The notes below the pieces were generated by a model. That model worked only from the letters and a program-made list of their open reading frames with translations, searched no databases and had not been told where the DNA came from. 6,860 nt of DNA from an uncultured delta proteobacterium (GTDB lineage Bacteria > RBG-13-61-14 > DRUE01), in assembly GCA_903930515.1 (NCBI GenBank), contig CAIYYW010000245.1, positions 1 to 6,860 of the forward strand. The letters are read 5' to 3'. A program made the position numbers and the translations under genes. The stretch's first letter is position 1. Each line of letters begins with the position of its first letter. Shown here one piece after another: positions 1 to 6,729 of the stretch.

Positions 1-1598
1 ATAGTGCAGGCCGCGCCGGTGATGGTATCGCCGTCATCATTGCAGGTATAAGTGTCGGTGGCCGCGGTCTTGGCGGAACCGATAGTGCAGGTCCTGCCGG
101 TATCGTTACCGCAGACCTCGGCGCAGGCTCCGGCCACTCCGGACTTATAGCAGCTGGTTCCGCTTACCGTGGCATCCGTGTCCGCATTATCATCAGAATC
201 ATTGCACACTTGGCCATCGCTCCAGAGATACTGGCAGCCCAGCGCGGAACTGGTCCCCTCTGTAACCGCGCCGACCGAACAGTTTATCCCGGCGATGACA
301 TCATTATCCAGAATGTCAATTGCATCGGAAAGGCTTGAGCCCGGATCGGTGATGGTGCACTGCGCCGGATCGTTCCCGCAGGAATTGAAGATGCTCACAA
401 CGCCGTCGCCGCCGGTGCAATTTCCCGAAACCGTGGAAGTAGCGGCCACATCCTCGGTGGTTCCGTCCGAGAGGCTCGCCACCAGCCGATAGGCCAGGTC
501 ATTGGTCCCTTCCCAAGCCGCAGTCGTGCTGAGCAGAACGCTCAGCGCGGTCTCGTCATTGACAATGGTCACGGCCGCGCTGTCGGATGACACCGGATTC
601 TTGCCGTCATCAAAGCTCGCGCTCACGCTCCCGCTTCCGCCGGCCAGACCCGGAATCTCATCGGCCTGAAAAGTCAGGCCCGGGCCGACCAGGGTTATAT
701 CTCCTTGATAATCCCATTGGGTCTGAACCTCGCAATAGGATTCTGTGCAATCAACCGTGCTCCCGTCGTCCAGCGAGCAGGTAGCCGCAAAAGTCAGGTT
801 TTGTCCCTCGAGCATGGACGGGTTTGCCGGCTTGACCTCGATCGCGGTAACTTTCCGGCACACGGTGCCGATAATGTCGTCATCAGCAGGAAGAGGATCC
901 GGGAATCTGCCATCAGGAATTCCGACCTCGTCATTGTCTGGAATATAGACGCCTACGCTGACCGACTCTCCGTTCAAACAGTCAACCGGATACCTCAGTT
1001 TTACCCGCGCCCATCCTTCATTGCCCGCTTCATCCGTATATTCAAACGCCTTGGTATTTTGCCAGCCATAATGTTTCCCATCATTAGGATCCCGGCCCCA
1101 AATCTGCGCGCCCGCGCAGGTGCCTCCCGTGATCTCAAAAATGATCCCCCATCCGACCCGGTACCGTCCAAAGCCGGAAATCGCTCGGGCGCGAATTTCA
1201 ACCGAGTCCCCGGCAGTTGTTTTTGGATTATAATTCCCAACCTCAATGGAGATCGGATTCCCGGACAGGTCGCTGAAATCTCCGACCAGCCAGGCTTGGA
1301 TAATGGCGTAATCCGGGCCATCTAAAAACCCGTTTCCATCCAGGTCCTGCCAGAGGGTGGTCCGGGAACGAACCCCGCCCGGCGCCTGGTTGTCAGTAAT
1401 ATTCCAGTATCCCGGGTCCTGGGCGACCAATGCCAATTCCATCGCCCCCATATCCGGGTTGTCAATCAGGGCATTGTCCGAGTCTCCCCAGAAATTCGCG
1501 CCCGGCAGGTGTTGTTGAGCGTTGGCTGAAAAGGAAAGGATACAAATTGCGGTCAAGCAAAAAAAACCGATCCCCCAAAACCGTCCAAACTTTTTCAT
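1..1598 (-). CDS. Large secreted multidomain protein with dockerin-like loops, Ig-like domains and a Cys-rich repeat section (3' end outside window)
   Basis: The frame is open for 532 codons from the ATG at 1598 to the window edge, so the protein is incomplete. Residues 1-27 form a Sec signal peptide: basic MKKFGR start, hydrophobic core around 9-24, and an ANA cleavage site before QQ. Residues 39-60 and 84-106 look like two dockerin/EF-hand loops; the second is the clearer, with DLDGNGFLDGPDY followed by an Ile/Leu-rich helix. Residues about 113-247 are a beta-rich domain I do not recognise. Residues about 249-347 resemble a bacterial Ig-like (Big_2-type) domain, with a second, weaker one at about 350-440. 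From 394 the chain is rich in Cys (12 between 394 and 531), Asp, Thr and Gly, with a short repeated pattern near the end. A GAGGGGG ribosome site lies 5 nt before the start. It is presumably exported and surface-bound or released; ligand or substrate unknown. No enzyme domain is visible in the part present. Confidence 0.85.
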   Translation of the reverse strand, partial: MKKFGRFWGIGFFCLTAICILSFSANAQQHLPGANFWGDSDNALIDNPDMGAMELALVAQDPGYWNITDNQAPGGVRSRTTLWQDLDGNGFLDGPDYAIIQAWLVGDFSDLSGNPISIEVGNYNPKTTAGDSVEIRARAISGFGRYRVGWGIIFEITGGTCAGAQIWGRDPNDGKHYGWQNTKAFEYTDEAGNEGWARVKLRYPVDCLNGESVSVGVYIPDNDEVGIPDGRFPDPLPADDDIIGTVCRKVTAIEVKPANPSMLEGQNLTFAATCSLDDGSTVDCTESYCEVQTQWDYQGDITLVGPGLTFQADEIPGLAGGSGSVSASFDDGKNPVSSDSAAVTIVNDETALSVLLSTTAAWEGTNDLAYRLVASLSDGTTEDVAATSTVSGNCTGGDGVVSIFNSCGNDPAQCTITDPGSSLSDAIDILDNDVIAGINCSVGAVTEGTSSALGCQYLWSDGQVCNDSDDNADTDATVSGTSCYKSGVAGACAEVCGNDTGRTCTIGSAKTAATDTYTCNDDGDTITGAACT

Positions 1599-1603
1599 TA
1601 TTG

Positions 1604-1610
1604 CCCCCTC
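1604..1610 (-). promoter_or_regulatory. Ribosome binding site of the secreted protein gene
   Basis: GAGGGGG on the minus strand, 5 nt upstream of the ATG at 1598. It supports this start, which also places the signal peptide exactly at the N-terminus. Confidence 0.7.
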
Positions 1611-1660
1611 TGTCGTAATCCGCCAAGCCACAAATAAATCCGAGTCTAATGCTCTTGATT

Positions 1661-2026: not shown

Positions 2027-3607
2027 CTATCCCAGGATTTTGTCCACTTCTTTTTTGTCCAGGTCGGTTATCATGGGGATGCCGGAAATTTTGGAGGCCT
2101 CGGGGGTAAGGGATGCGATGTCGTTCCGGTCAATGTGCTTCACCGCGAACTTTCTGTTCCCGGCCATCATTTGCCGGAGCCCCTGGGACAGCCGCTCGTA
2201 GTAGGTATAAAGGGCGATGGCCGAGGTCGGTATTTTGTTATAGTCCTTTCCGAATTCGCGTTTCAGTTTCTCTGCGGTCACGAAGATGGCTTCCCGCGAT
2301 CTTCCGAAGCGCTCCAGGTAAACCGGGAGGTCTCCGCTTTCAATGGCTTTGCCGATGGTCTTTCCGACCATGGCCGCGGCAATGGGTCCTCGGGCCATAC
2401 CGATTGCCTTGACATAGGGAGCGCCTAGGGAGAAGGCCTTAAACATCTGGTCTTCCAGGCCGATGCCGCCTGCGAACACGATGTCCGGGAGATATTGTCC
2501 TTTCTTGGCCAGCCGCTCGCAATATTGATAGGTCAGGGACCAGAGCTCAATGGAGGGTATTCCCCATTCATTCATCATTCTCCAGGGGCTCATTCCAGTG
2601 CCGCCTCCGGCGCCGTCCACGGTGAGGTAATCAATCTTGGCCATTGACGAGAACTTTACCGCGCGGGCAAGGTCCGCGGGCCGATAAGCGCCGGTCTTGA
2701 GCGCAACGCGCTTGGCGCCCGCTTTCCGGAGCTCTTCCACCCGGCTCATAAAGTCCTCTTCCGTGACCATTCCCACGCGCGAATGCCTTTCAAACTCGGT
2801 AAAAGCCCCGCGCTTGAAATCTTCAACCACCGCGGGGTCCAGCGGGTCCGGGAGCACGATATAGCCGCGCTTTTTCAGGAGCTGGGCTTTTTCCAGGTTC
2901 TTGATCTTGACCTCGCCGCCGATGTCCTTGGCGCCCTGTCCCCATTTCAATTCCACGGTCTCGGCGCCGAGTTTTTCCAGGGCGTATTCCTGAATGCCCA
3001 GCCGGGTATCCTCAACATTGGCCTGGATGATGATGTCTCCATAGCCTTCCCTCTGCCATTGCTTGTACATCTTCACCCGGCGCTCCAGTTCCGGGGAATG
3101 GATGACTTTCCCGTTCTTGACCTTGCTCTCTATATCCATCCCGCAGACATTCTCGCCGATGGTGAGCGGGGTTCCGGAAATGGCCGAGCCGATGGCGAGC
3201 CCTTCCCAGTTCAGCCTTGCCACATCGGTGGAACCGAGCCCGGGGATGATGATGGGGAGGCGCATTTTAATGGGGTTGCCGTTGGCGCCGAGCTTGATTT
3301 CCAAATCCACATTGGGGAAGATGGCCTTGTCCGAATCCGCTTCTATCCCGACGGCTCCGACCGCGGTTCCCATAATGTTGAAATGGGACAGGTCCACCGG
3401 ATAATCTTTTTGCGAGGCCGCGGTGATAATGCCGAAGGGCTGGGGATAGATCACCTCGTGTCCCCGGTAGGCGCTCTTTCCGATCTCGCACATGCCGATA
3501 CATCCGTCAATGCAGGTGACGCACATCCCGGAAAACGGGCACCAATCACTCCCGGTCCGGTTCTTGGTCAGGGTGGCCGCGGTCGCGTTATACCTTGTTA
3601 GTGTCAT
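2027..3607 (-). CDS. Glutamate-synthase-type FMN barrel protein (GltB central domain family), stand-alone
   Basis: A 526-aa protein of the FMN-binding glutamate synthase family, predicted to be cytoplasmic. In full-size glutamate synthase this TIM barrel binds FMN and aminates 2-oxoglutarate with ammonia channelled from a glutaminase domain. Visible barrel features include GLGSTDVARLNWEG near 123-136, the glycine-rich phosphate-binding segment GAGGGTGMSP at 332-341, and FAGGIGLEDQMFKAFSLGA near 378-396. The N-terminal glutaminase domain and the C-terminal beta-helix of GltB are missing. The usual Cys-rich 3Fe-4S motif after the barrel is also absent, the only late Cys being C362. Instead there is an N-terminal cluster at C23, C29, C32, C36 and C40 that could hold an Fe-S centre. 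I chose the ATG at 3607 because AGGAGG lies 7 nt upstream; a TTG two codons earlier is only 1 nt from that site. It is the last gene of the operon, 74 nt after the Fe-S protein. True substrate is uncertain. Confidence 0.88.
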   Translation of the reverse strand: MTLTRYNATAATLTKNRTGSDWCPFSGMCVTCIDGCIGMCEIGKSAYRGHEVIYPQPFGIITAASQKDYPVDLSHFNIMGTAVGAVGIEADSDKAIFPNVDLEIKLGANGNPIKMRLPIIIPGLGSTDVARLNWEGLAIGSAISGTPLTIGENVCGMDIESKVKNGKVIHSPELERRVKMYKQWQREGYGDIIIQANVEDTRLGIQEYALEKLGAETVELKWGQGAKDIGGEVKIKNLEKAQLLKKRGYIVLPDPLDPAVVEDFKRGAFTEFERHSRVGMVTEEDFMSRVEELRKAGAKRVALKTGAYRPADLARAVKFSSMAKIDYLTVDGAGGGTGMSPWRMMNEWGIPSIELWSLTYQYCERLAKKGQYLPDIVFAGGIGLEDQMFKAFSLGAPYVKAIGMARGPIAAAMVGKTIGKAIESGDLPVYLERFGRSREAIFVTAEKLKREFGKDYNKIPTSAIALYTYYERLSQGLRQMMAGNRKFAVKHIDRNDIASLTPEASKISGIPMITDLDKKEVDKILG

Positions 3608-3614
3608 AATCAAA

Positions 3615-3620
3615 CCTCCT
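3615..3620 (-). promoter_or_regulatory. Strong Shine-Dalgarno site that fixes the start of the glutamate-synthase-like gene
   Basis: AGGAGG on the minus strand sits 7 nt before the ATG at 3607 and only 1 nt before the in-frame TTG at 3613, so the ATG is the start. Confidence 0.85.
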
Positions 3621-3681
3621 TCATTTTCTTTCCGTTTTTTATTTCTCGCACGGGCTCAATGAATCAGCCCCTGCCATATCT

Positions 3682-4344
3682 TCAATATGCCTTATGTCCT
3701 CTCGGCCCGACCGCCTCTGAGCATTTGACGCAAATTTCGCAGGTTTGCACCAACGCCAGGTTCTGGCAACCGCCGCAAAGACCGTTCACCAGATTGTTGG
3801 CGTTACAGGCCAACTCGCAGACCGGGCAGACCCATTCGCACCCGCCGCAGTGCCTGCATTCCGCGGGCATAACTCCAAAAGCGGTTCCCACCCTTCGGGC
3901 AGTTCCCCGTCCCACGAACCCGATCCCGCCGGATTGCATCTGCTCCTTGCAATACCGGATGCACCTTCCGCACAGGATGCAATTCTTTTCCTTGATCCGG
4001 AACCGGACCTTGTTGATCGCCATCATTGAGGCCAGGTCCTGGAGCTTTTTGGATTTCGGGCAGGACGAGACCAGCAGTTCCACCACAATCTTGCGCGCCT
4101 TTTTCACCCGGTCCGACCCGGTGATGATCTCCAGACCTGATTCCACCGGCATGGTGCACGAGGCTTCCAATGAGGACTTCCTCCCCTTCACCTCCACCAT
4201 ACACACCCGGCATTCGCCGTAAGTGCTCAAGCCCGGGTAATAGCAAAGGGTCGGGATAATGATCCCCATGCTTTTGGCCGCCTCCAGAACCGTGGTTCCT
4301 TCTTCCACCCTGGTCTTGATTCCGTCAATTGTCAGTTCCACCAT
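3682..4344 (-). CDS. Short NuoG/HydA-like iron-sulfur protein, A-type subunit of a bifurcating-type complex
   Basis: A 220-aa soluble electron-transfer protein matching the N-terminal part of NuoG, HndD and HydA. Residues 1-75 are a plant-type [2Fe-2S] ferredoxin domain with C34, C45, C48 and C63. Two [4Fe-4S] motifs follow: C122-x2-C-x2-C-x3-C132 and C163-x2-C-x2-C-x3-C173. There is no hydrogenase H-cluster domain or molybdopterin domain, so it only carries electrons. The His/Cys-ligated [4Fe-4S] segment normally lying between the ferredoxin domains is missing: the text runs LLVSSCPKSKKLQDLA, with the flanking LL and LQDLA kept. After the last ferredoxin motif come seven more Cys (176, 180, 190, 193, 202, 205, 208), enough for another cluster or a metal site. 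An AAGAGG ribosome site is 5 nt before the ATG. It lies 46 nt after the NuoF-like gene and 74 nt before the glutamate-synthase-like gene, which suggests it links the two. Confidence 0.88.
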   Translation of the reverse strand: MVELTIDGIKTRVEEGTTVLEAAKSMGIIIPTLCYYPGLSTYGECRVCMVEVKGRKSSLEASCTMPVESGLEIITGSDRVKKARKIVVELLVSSCPKSKKLQDLASMMAINKVRFRIKEKNCILCGRCIRYCKEQMQSGGIGFVGRGTARRVGTAFGVMPAECRHCGGCEWVCPVCELACNANNLVNGLCGGCQNLALVQTCEICVKCSEAVGPRGHKAY

Positions 4345-4349
4345 TTTTG

Positions 4350-4355
4350 CCTCTT
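4350..4355 (-). promoter_or_regulatory. Ribosome binding site of the short iron-sulfur protein gene
   Basis: AAGAGG on the minus strand, 5 nt before the ATG at 4344. Confidence 0.65.
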
Positions 4356-4390
4356 TTCCTACGGGCGACCCGGCTGGTCTCCCCTACAAT

Positions 4391-6250
4391 TCAACTCACT
4401 AAAATCGCGTCAAACTTGCAGGCGTCCTTGCACAGCCCGCATTTGATGCAAAGTTCCTGATTGATCTTATGCGCCTTCTTCTTCTCCCCCTTGACTGCGG
4501 CCTGCGGGCAAACTTTCGCGCATCTGGCACAGCCGTTGCAGTTTTCCTTGATCACCGAGAAGGTGATCAGGCTCTTGCAGACCCGGGCCGGACAGCGTTT
4601 ATCCTTGATGTGCGCGGTGTATTCGTCCCGGAAATAATTGATCGTGCTTAAAACCGGGTTGGGAGCGGTCCTTCCCAGGGCGCAGAGCGAGGTTTCCCGG
4701 ATCATTGTTCCCAATTCCTCCAGGAGTTCCACATCTCCCGGCCCGGCCTTGCCCTCGGTAATATCGGTCAGGATATCCAGCATCCGGTCCAATCCCTCCC
4801 GGCAGGGCACGCATTTTCCGCACGACTCCTCGGTAAGAAATTTGATAAAATATCTGGCCACATCCACCATACAGGTGTCTTCATCCATCACGATCATTCC
4901 GCCCGAGCCCATCATTGAGCCGACCTCAGAAAGCCGGTCAAAATCCACCGGAAGGTCCAGCAGTTTTTCCGGGAGGCATCCGCCGGAGGGACCCCCGGTC
5001 TGGACCGCCTTGAATTTTTTCCCGTTCGGAATTCCGCCGCCGATGTCATAAACGATCTCGCGGAGGGTGATTCCCATGGGCACTTCCACCAAACCGGTGT
5101 TATTGATCTTGCCCACCAGCGAGAATATTTTGGTGCCCTTGGAATGTTCGGTTCCGATTTTGGAATACCATTTGGATCCCTGGTTGATGATCAGCGGGAC
5201 ATTGGCCCAGGTTTCCACATTGTTCAGATTGGTGGGCCGTCCGTTCAAGCCCTGCACCACCGTGTGGATATGCTTGGGCCGAGGCTCTCCCATTTTTCCC
5301 TCCAGGCTCGCCACCAAGGCGGTGGATTCCCCGCAGATGAAGGCGCCGCCGCCCCGCGCAATCCGGATGTCAAAATCAAAGCCGGACCCGAGGATATTCT
5401 GGCCCAGCAGACCGTATTTCCTTGCCTGGTCAAGGGCGATTCCCAGGTTTTTCACTGCCAAGGGATATTCGTTCCGGACATAGACATAGCCGGTGTGCGC
5501 GCCGATGGCATACGCTCCGATGATCATTCCTTCAATTACGCTGTGCGGGTTGCCTTCCAGCACCGACCGGTCCATAAACGCGCCCGGGTCTCCCTCGTCC
5601 GCGTTGCAGATCACATAGCGGATCCCGTCCGAAGAAGGCGCGGCCCGGCAGGCCTCCCATTTTTTGCCGGTCGGGAACCCTGCGCCCCCCCTGCCCCTTA
5701 AGCCCGAATTCTTGACCTCGTCAATAATCTCTTTGGGCTTCATTCTGGACAGGGCTTTAGCGAGCGCGGAATACCCTCCCAGGGCCAGGAAATCATCAAT
5801 TTGATAGGGATCAATCAGCCGGTTCGCGTCCAAGAGATGCCGGGTTTGCTTGCGGAAGAAATTTAAATCCTGCTCATAAACGATCTTTTTCCCGCTCACT
5901 GGATCTGTGAAAAGAAGGCGTTCCACCAACTGTCCGTCCCGGATGGATTTGGAGATGATTTCCGGAATGTCTTGGGGGCTGACCTTCTGATACAGAACCC
6001 GCTCCGGATATATCACCACCACCGGTTCTATTTCGCAGAAGCCCTGACAGCCGGTGACTTTTAAGGAAACCTTTCTGTCCAGCCCTTTTTTCCGCAGTTC
6101 TTTACCAATCGCCTGGGCAACCTCAATGGCGCCGCGGGCGATTCCGCAAGTGCCGGCGCTGGTTACGATCCGCTTCTGCTCGCGCTCGCTTTTGCCGACG
6201 ATCTTTTTCCGCAGTTTTTCCAGTTCAGCTACTGATTTCAGTTTTTTCAT
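4391..6250 (-). CDS. NuoF/HydB/HndC-type NAD(H)-binding flavoprotein, B subunit of a bifurcating-type complex
   Basis: This 619-aa subunit oxidises NADH or reduces NAD+ on FMN and passes electrons to iron-sulfur clusters. Residues about 25-112 are a thioredoxin-fold [2Fe-2S] domain with three obvious Cys (C35, C68, C72). Residues about 175-330 hold the FMN and NAD site: GRGGAGFPTGKKW (186-198), NADEGDPGAFMDR (216-228) and GGAFICGESTAL (301-312). An SLBB-type segment follows at about 375-440. The [4Fe-4S] motif is ESCGKCVPCREG with C477, C480, C483 plus C523. The C-terminus has a CPARVC motif (C553, C557), known in HydB-type proteins near a metal-binding hinge, then a 2x[4Fe-4S] ferredoxin with C571, C574, C577, C581 and C601, C604, C607, C611. 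Both added domains distinguish it from respiratory complex I NuoF (about 440 aa) and are typical of HydB, HndC and other Bfu proteins. Its ATG overlaps the stop of the NuoE-like gene (ATGA), implying translational coupling. Confidence 0.95.
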   Translation of the reverse strand: MKKLKSVAELEKLRKKIVGKSEREQKRIVTSAGTCGIARGAIEVAQAIGKELRKKGLDRKVSLKVTGCQGFCEIEPVVVIYPERVLYQKVSPQDIPEIISKSIRDGQLVERLLFTDPVSGKKIVYEQDLNFFRKQTRHLLDANRLIDPYQIDDFLALGGYSALAKALSRMKPKEIIDEVKNSGLRGRGGAGFPTGKKWEACRAAPSSDGIRYVICNADEGDPGAFMDRSVLEGNPHSVIEGMIIGAYAIGAHTGYVYVRNEYPLAVKNLGIALDQARKYGLLGQNILGSGFDFDIRIARGGGAFICGESTALVASLEGKMGEPRPKHIHTVVQGLNGRPTNLNNVETWANVPLIINQGSKWYSKIGTEHSKGTKIFSLVGKINNTGLVEVPMGITLREIVYDIGGGIPNGKKFKAVQTGGPSGGCLPEKLLDLPVDFDRLSEVGSMMGSGGMIVMDEDTCMVDVARYFIKFLTEESCGKCVPCREGLDRMLDILTDITEGKAGPGDVELLEELGTMIRETSLCALGRTAPNPVLSTINYFRDEYTAHIKDKRCPARVCKSLITFSVIKENCNGCARCAKVCPQAAVKGEKKKAHKINQELCIKCGLCKDACKFDAILVS

Positions 6251-6729
6251 CTTTTCTTTCCATTTGATTTCTTTTTCACCCCAGCCAAAAGCTCAGCCAC
6301 TTTTCCCGGCTTCATCTGGCCGTGATACTTTTCATCCACCACCACAATCGGCCCCAGCGCGCAGGCGCCCAGGCAGTTGACCGTTTCCAGCGTGAACTCC
6401 TGGTCCTTGGTGGTCTGCTTGGGAGCGATTCTCAGCTTTCGCTCCAGTTCGTCCAATACCCTTGGCGCCCCCCGGACATGACAGGCGGTTCCCATACAGA
6501 CCGTGCAGGTATGCTTCCCGGCAGGCTCCATGCGGAAGGCCTTGAAAAAGGTGGAAACGCCATAAACCTGGATCAGGGGAAGGCCGACTTGGTCCGCCAC
6601 CAGCTTGATCGCTTCTTCCGGAAGATACCGGTATTCGGCCTGAACATCCTGAAGCATTGACACCAGGCAATCGTGACGGCCCCGGTACTTATCTACAATC
6701 TCCTTGACCTTCTTCGCGTTAACCTTCAT
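6247..6729 (-). CDS. NuoE/HydC/HndA-type [2Fe-2S] subunit, C subunit of a bifurcating-type complex
   Basis: This 160-aa protein has the standard length for the 24-kDa subunit family. Residues about 1-65 form the helical N-terminal region, with the family-typical GVSTFFKAF at 57-65. The thioredoxin-fold domain carries the four [2Fe-2S] ligands as C78-x4-C83 (CMGTAC) and C119-x3-C123 (CLGAC). C75 is an additional Cys. The tail is Lys-rich (KKKSNGKKR). It partners the NuoF-like protein, with which its gene overlaps by 4 nt, and helps relay electrons between FMN and the clusters. The ATG at 6727-6729 has an AAGGA site 5 nt upstream. It is the first gene of the operon within this window. Confidence 0.95.
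   Translation of the reverse strand: MKVNAKKVKEIVDKYRGRHDCLVSMLQDVQAEYRYLPEEAIKLVADQVGLPLIQVYGVSTFFKAFRMEPAGKHTCTVCMGTACHVRGAPRVLDELERKLRIAPKQTTKDQEFTLETVNCLGACALGPIVVVDEKYHGQMKPGKVAELLAGVKKKSNGKKR

Follow-up and report, generated by a model that had tools for sequence, protein, structure and literature searches.

Introduction

What might a Bfu core be doing when its third partner resembles not a hydrogenase but a glutamate synthase? In Bfu enzymes the core stays the same and the third reaction varies: FMN is the site of electron exchange with NAD(H), the B3/B4 clusters serve ferredoxin, BfuA passes electrons on to the third substrate, and 17 clades of the family have been left without a function (Schut et al., 2022; PMC9304861). 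The locus analyzed here lies in a window of 6,860 nucleotides (the whole stretch of DNA under study), which is contig C245 of a 3.65 Mb, 401-contig genome. In it, the genes for such a core are followed by gltX, which encodes a GltB-like FMN barrel.

Gene order and composition of the core

The four genes lie head to tail on the minus strand (Table 1), with the bfuC and bfuB reading frames sharing 4 bases. Pfam and NCBIfam assign the products to NuoE, extended NuoF, the N-terminal part of NuoG/HydA, and Glu_synthase, respectively. A preliminary description of this DNA had reported four same-strand genes, a HydABC-type core followed by a GltB-type barrel without a hydrogenase domain; both its coordinates and its reading of the genes prove correct against the ORFs and Pfam matches. 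Homologs of gltX lack the first two codons of the ORF, so its start is probably the ATG at 3605–3607. The ORF downstream of gltX has no Pfam or NCBIfam match, and differs from the CCG and glutaminase genes found downstream of gltX in a genome of the same genus (G001).

Table 1. Features of the window, all on the minus strand.
Feature	Position	Strand	Length	Description
bfuC	6247..6729	(-)	160 aa	NuoE/HydC-like [2Fe-2S] thioredoxin-fold subunit; C1 cluster, Cys 78, 83, 119, 123
bfuB	4391..6250	(-)	619 aa	Extended NuoF/HydB-like: NAD(H)/FMN domain, SLBB, B1, N-terminal 2Fe-2S, B2 ligands, C-terminal 2x[4Fe-4S] (B3/B4)
bfuA	3682..4344	(-)	220 aa	Short NuoG-like: 2Fe-2S (C34/45/48/63), two 4Fe-4S, Cys-rich C-terminal tail
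gltX	2027..3613	(-)	528 aa	GltB-like FMN (beta/alpha)8 protein; N-terminal CxxCxxxCxxxC (C31/34/38/42)
ORF	3..1631	(-)	543 aa	Open-ended; signal peptide-like start, repeats, secreted-looking

BfuC is a 2Fe-2S_thioredx protein (PF01257, IPR002023 type; E 4.8e-50 in the Pfam search), and its four cluster cysteines are kept in essentially all aligned loci. BfuB carries Complex1_51K, SLBB, NADH_4Fe-4S, and paired C-terminal [4Fe-4S] domains, with PF01512, PF10531, PF10589, and PF00037 all above cut-off and equivalent to IPR011538, IPR019554, IPR019575, and IPR017896, as expected of a Bfu subunit; a thioredoxin-like 2Fe-2S domain lies at its N-terminus. Its best solved relative is the bifurcating NiFe-HydB of A. 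mobile (7t2r; 4e-237), followed by the A. woodii and T. kivui structures, with complex I NuoF far behind. The B2 cluster of Bfu enzymes is ligated by C438, C476 (mostly Thr), H525, C531, and C536, and non-bifurcating homologs lack the histidine (PMC9304861); C460, T498, H547, C553, and C558 of the window BfuB align with these residues in 7t2r, and the B2 cysteines and histidine are present in all 75 aligned BfuB sequences. The eight cysteines of B3/B4 occur in the window protein and throughout the non-fused BfuB sequences (35/35). The B5 region, a thioredoxin-like 2Fe-2S domain resembling the T. sibiricus-type NfnB (9n5u), conserves C68 and C72, while C35 lines up in no more than 39 of the 75 sequences and a fourth cysteine is not obvious. 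A complex I remnant is ruled out, given the Bfu ligands of BfuB and the bifurcating enzymes that are its closest solved relatives. By sequence criteria, the B5 ligands aside, the core is of the Bfu type, much as the preliminary description had proposed, and may bifurcate.

BfuA matches Fer2_4 (2.1e-19), with Fer4 matches below threshold, and its eight ferredoxin-type cysteines are found in 84 of 84 sequences; Pfam detects neither a hydrogenase domain nor NADH-G_4Fe-4S_3 (His-Cys) in it. Because the 2Fe-2S and two 4Fe-4S clusters are kept and the His-Cys domain is absent, BfuA resembles that of Type 2 enzymes, which lacks A3 and A5 (PMC9304861); equating the missing A3 with the His-Cys cluster is our own reading of the published numbering. 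The tail of the protein (C176–C208) adds six or seven cysteines, conserved in at least 87% of the 84 sequences. This tail was not seen in the Por- and Codh-linked BfuA proteins examined, and within that comparison it is confined to the GltX-linked type. It could hold an extra cluster that faces GltX.

Two architectures of BfuB were recovered. In 40 of the 75 BfuB sequences (the 1058-aa protein at L045:4129-7302 and those of some 39 further loci), Fer4_20 and Pyr_redox_2 take the place of the C-terminal B3/B4 domain and together amount to a GltD-like domain; the window BfuB is of the non-fused, ferredoxin type. GltD is the natural partner of GltB. The replacement is not unique to GltX, however, because the same GltD-like (DPD_II-FAD) substitution occurs in a sub-type of [FeFe]-hydrogenase Bfu (PMC11406978) and, within the window genome itself, in a BfuB paired with an Fdh-type BfuA. 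Among the other Bfu systems of the window genome (G000) are a BfuB-GltD fusion with a molybdopterin-type BfuA on contig C243 (L202), and a 1245-aa BfuA joining GltD-like and molybdopterin domains on C35 (L205).

Conservation and phylogeny

The survey comprised one genome per species, in which at least 577 stretches encode GltX relatives, and the best 80 loci were read. BfuA is encoded directly upstream of GltX at 77 of these 80, usually in the order BfuC, BfuB, BfuA, and at a median gap of 114 bases, which rules out chance adjacency of bfuA and gltX; the three exceptions are two loci with room for Bfu genes but none present (L062, L109) and one at a contig edge (L111). Beyond the Bfu genes and gltX, none of the catalytic genes nearby is constant. 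The gene set spans about 20 phyla, so the adjacency that the preliminary description had expected relatives to retain is indeed conserved. Hosts include Planctomycetota, Chloroflexota, Zixiibacteriota, Aminicenantota, Bacteroidota, Ignavibacteriota, Acidobacteriota, Bacillota, Actinomycetota, Myxococcota, Spirochaetota, Latescibacterota, and one archaeal (Altiarchaeales) assembly; many are MAGs, and some host assignments may therefore be wrong.

All 84 Bfu-linked GltX sequences fall in one clade of the GltX tree (support 98; shuffled mean, 12.3 changes). Distances between GltX proteins track those between BfuA proteins more closely than for any other gene pair (Spearman 0.81, 68 loci), a correlation to which host relatedness contributes. 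The BfuB tree, quickly built and weakly supported at many forks, places 65 GltX-linked BfuB in one group (support 91), and the window's group of eight among Por-linked and other Bfu proteins; the nearest relatives of the window BfuB outside the GltX-linked set belong to Por-, Codh-, and Fdh-linked enzymes. Because the window's group sits apart from the larger one, it is possible that GltX was retained through at least one exchange of the Bfu core.

Sister GltX proteins without Bfu genes adjoin glutamine synthetase, ANTAR regulators, or glutaminase and GXGXG genes. More distant GltX-like subfamilies (L030 and L031, at 45% identity; L027, L028, and L029) share the N-terminal CxxCxxxCxxxC; no Bfu genes neighbor L028, L030, or L031, and at L027 and L029 the upstream sequence is too short to tell. 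A second gltX lies near the Bfu-linked copy in L047 and in L066 (the Altiarchaeales assembly), and falls in non-Bfu branches of the tree.

GltX as a glutamate-synthase-type barrel

GltX scores 54.4 bits against PF01645 Glu_synthase (cut-off 20.4), and aligns with a canonical split GltB at E 3.6e-13 (hhalign). Glu_synthase is the Pfam match in 59 of 59 family members, and FMN_dh reaches E 0.0024 at best. The alignment with Fd-GltS retains the QGAK..GG and GGTGxSP motifs. Lys972 of Fd-GltS, a contact of 2-oxoglutarate, is kept as Lys229 of GltX, and Gln978 is replaced by Glu234. The AF2 model is an FMN barrel (pLDDT 85.9, pTM 0.88), superseding an earlier model built from 13 sequences (pLDDT 70.9). 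With the glycine-rich FMN and substrate motifs of glutamate synthase kept and the barrel confidently modeled, the FMN site assumed in the preliminary description is borne out.

In other respects GltX departs from glutamate synthase. There is no cysteine where GltS has its [3Fe-4S] motif beside the FMN, and the class II glutaminase and GXGXG beta-helix are absent from the window, neither fused to GltX nor encoded in the operon. The N-terminal cysteines of GltX are nearly invariant (93 or 94 of 94 sequences). Because GltX has the barrel but lacks the [3Fe-4S] motif and the glutaminase, we keep it outside the canonical GltS family, and class the system as a Bfu variant with a probable glutamate-synthase-like function.

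Structure comparison adds a caution, since IDI-2 and hydroxyacid oxidases match the GltX model at least as well as GltS does, and the fold alone therefore does not single out a substrate. A PDB sequence search with the GltX profile returned designed TIM barrels only. Identification of GltX as a hydroxyacid oxidase, IDI-2, or IMPDH would suit the fold, but the sequence families favor Glu_synthase, and such identities survive only within the broader alternative, considered below, that GltX reduces some other substrate.

Nitrogen context

In genome G001, gltX is followed by a gene for a 445-aa CCG/HdrB-HdrC-like Fe-S protein, and then by one for a GltS-type class II glutaminase (L018:3717-6135, contig C550). 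Orthologs of both are located elsewhere in the window genome, at the end of C329 and the start of C356, contigs that, judging from G001, would join inside the glutaminase gene. They adjoin genes that appear by sequence to be AmtB- and PII-like, followed by canonical gltB, GXGXG, GS, and GDH genes; the window genome thus harbors canonical split GltS, GS, and GDH as well as GltX. Other arrangements include GltX-GATase_2-GXGXG (L111) and GS-GltX-ANTAR (L062). GDH-family genes occur in the retrieved flanking sequence at 8 of the 80 loci, versus 0.37 genes expected (about 20-fold, with the frequency taken from 18 genomes and the hosts not independent).

Gene complements differ between hosts. A Bfu-linked GltX and GS are present, and GDH and canonical GltS were not detected, in L074 (a single-contig chromosome), L035, and L033; the same complement (GS, and no match to GDH or canonical GltS) is found in L062 and G047, but there GltX is not next to Bfu genes. 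These absences are weaker for all but L074, because MAGs are incomplete. Canonical GltS and GltX coexist in the window genome, L085, L109, L047, and L061. GXGXG was not found in 8 of 10 genomes tested, nor GATase_2 in 10 of 14, and the nitrogen source would therefore be free ammonia or another glutaminase. The gene neighbors, and the genomes in which GltX is the only glutamate-synthase candidate, point to glutamate as the product of GltX; the glutamate-synthase-like third partner suggested in the preliminary description holds in outline, and its glutamate product is at present what we infer.

A proposed NADH- and ferredoxin-dependent glutamate synthase

We propose that the products of the four genes assemble into a single cytoplasmic enzyme, here called Glt-Bfu, in which a Bfu core (BfuB, BfuC, and a Type-2-like BfuA) is joined to GltX, and NADH and reduced ferredoxin drive glutamate formation. 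We place the probability of this reading at roughly 55%. That BfuABC and GltX form a single complex is strongly indicated by the genomic evidence. The electron path, substrate, NADH–ferredoxin coupling, and direction that we infer would be as follows. NADH would reduce the FMN of BfuB, and reduced ferredoxin would deliver electrons at its C-terminal B3/B4 clusters; the merged electrons would pass from B1 to A1, then through A2/A4 to the extra cluster in the BfuA tail, from there to a [4Fe-4S] cluster at the GltX N-terminus, and on to the barrel FMN. Ammonia, either free or from a separate glutaminase, would condense with 2-oxoglutarate to 2-iminoglutarate, which would be reduced in the barrel to L-glutamate. 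The net reaction would be NADH + Fd(red) + 2 2-oxoglutarate + 2 NH3 -> 2 glutamate.

The glutamate couple, at about -130 mV, lies well above those of NADH (-280 mV) and ferredoxin (-500 mV), and synthesis is therefore the feasible direction; the catabolic direction, in which glutamate oxidation would reduce NAD+ and ferredoxin, is ruled out on potentials. Because the glutamate couple falls outside the span from NAD(H) to ferredoxin, coupling of the two donors is thermodynamically unneeded, and it would therefore serve as a gate. Gate-type coupling has also been proposed for Rub-Bfu (PMC9304861). A more ambitious claim is put forward tentatively: that Glt-Bfu is a glutamate synthase with an obligate need for both NADH and ferredoxin (confurcating), dispenses with the glutaminase and GXGXG domains of GltS, and is the chief source of glutamate in many anaerobic lineages that have yet to be cultured. 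We would sooner expect this claim to need revision than to stand in full.

The alternative that survives best accepts the Bfu-GltX complex but has GltX reduce something else: a 2-oxo or imino acid, a hydroxy acid/oxo acid pair, or some unrecognized flavin-barrel substrate. It gains from the sharing of the FMN barrel with IDI-2, hydroxyacid oxidases, and IMPDH, whose scores equal those of GltS, from the missing [3Fe-4S] motif and the one altered substrate-site residue, from the lack of glutaminase and GXGXG in most genomes tested, and from the retention of canonical GltS beside GltX in some. The uniform Glu_synthase matches and marginal FMN_dh score argue otherwise, as do the GDH, GS, GATase/GXGXG, and ANTAR neighbors and the position of GltX as the sole glutamate-synthase candidate in several genomes. 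We regard a different substrate as unlikely, though deserving of serious consideration.

It is also conceivable that a single complex makes glutamate without bifurcation or confurcation, BfuBC acting as a plain NADH (or ferredoxin) input to GltX. Glutamate synthesis requires no low-potential push, and at the 40 fused loci the GltD-like domain stands in place of the ferredoxin-docking B3/B4 domain, whose loss has been tied to loss of bifurcation with ferredoxin (PMC9304861, PMC11406978). Against this, the window and other non-fused loci keep every Bfu cluster ligand tested, including His547 and the eight B3/B4 cysteines, whereas B2–B5 are lost in non-bifurcating homologs (PMC9304861); we consider a simple input module improbable. 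Finally, two separate enzymes sharing an operon, a Bfu enzyme with some third substrate of its own and a GltX that works on its own with electrons from ferredoxin or some other carrier, would account for the GltX homologs that occur without nearby Bfu genes (L023–L025, L028, L030, L031, L062, and L109), but are very hard to reconcile with the single clade of Bfu-linked GltX, the lack of any other constant catalytic gene, and a BfuA tail special to GltX loci.

Relation to known systems

Glt-Bfu shares with the Type 2 enzymes (Por-, Codh-, Wor-, and Bam-Bfu; PMC9304861) a BfuB/BfuC core with its cluster ligands, a BfuA with A1 and two 4Fe-4S clusters but no His-Cys cluster, and a catalytic subunit gene adjoining the core genes; it differs in its GltB-like third subunit and in the extra Cys-rich tail of BfuA. 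The glutamate synthases (GltS/GOGAT; ferredoxin- and NAD(P)H-dependent and archaeal split forms, PF01645) have in common with it the FMN barrel and its motifs, a GltD-like partner domain (at about half of Glt-Bfu loci), and linkage to GS, GDH, and glutaminase genes. Unlike them, GltX has the N-terminal CxxCxxxCxxxC rather than the [3Fe-4S] motif, carries no fused glutaminase or GXGXG, and presumably receives its electrons via BfuA, not directly from GltD or ferredoxin.

Three further systems invite comparison. The Stn/Nfn-Bfu transhydrogenase (StnABC; PMC10482914) likewise combines a Bfu core with a glutamate-synthase-derived module, but there it is the GltD (NADPH/FAD) half, within the NuoG-like subunit, whereas Glt-Bfu has the GltB (FMN synthase) half, present as a subunit of its own. 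The sub-type I [FeFe]-hydrogenase Bfu of Hydrogenedentota (PMC11406978) shows the same B3/B4 replacement as the fused Glt-Bfu loci; its BfuA has an H-cluster, and the window BfuB is non-fused. The F420-dependent glutamate synthase of ANME (FrhB and GltS clusters; PMC9012536) is also a glutamate synthase rewired to another electron-input module, although the input protein is unrelated and there is no Bfu core. The third substrates listed for the Bfu family include no glutamate-synthase member, and the words "glutamate" and "Glt" are absent from that main text (PMC9304861). Our search of open-access main texts found no glutamate-synthase Bfu; earlier mention elsewhere is possible.

Glt-Bfu offers a concrete candidate for a third reaction, represented by a single GltX clade across about 20 phyla, and may constitute an undescribed route to glutamate in anaerobes. 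If the proposal is correct, electron bifurcation would be tied directly to nitrogen assimilation, with the state of the NADH and ferredoxin pools gating glutamate synthesis, and, were the need for both donors obligate, a further donor class would join the NADPH-, NADH-, and ferredoxin-dependent glutamate synthases. Such an enzyme would also close a metabolic gap wherever a genome encodes glutamine synthetase and neither GDH nor a canonical glutamate synthase can be detected.

Associated genes

Several further genes recur at these loci. A small Cys-rich protein of about 100–150 aa (CTTCNYGSDCVRR...LYCEEFD), without a Pfam match, is encoded at 26 loci, mostly upstream of bfuC (for example, L045:2733-3185). 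A histidine kinase and a sigma-54 NtrC-type response regulator, recognized by sequence motifs, lie upstream of the operon at L045:3-2553 and about 30 other loci, which suggests that this two-component system may regulate the Glt-Bfu operon. GAF-ANTAR regulators adjoin gltX at L023–L025, L062, L085, L102, and L109, both with and without Bfu genes.
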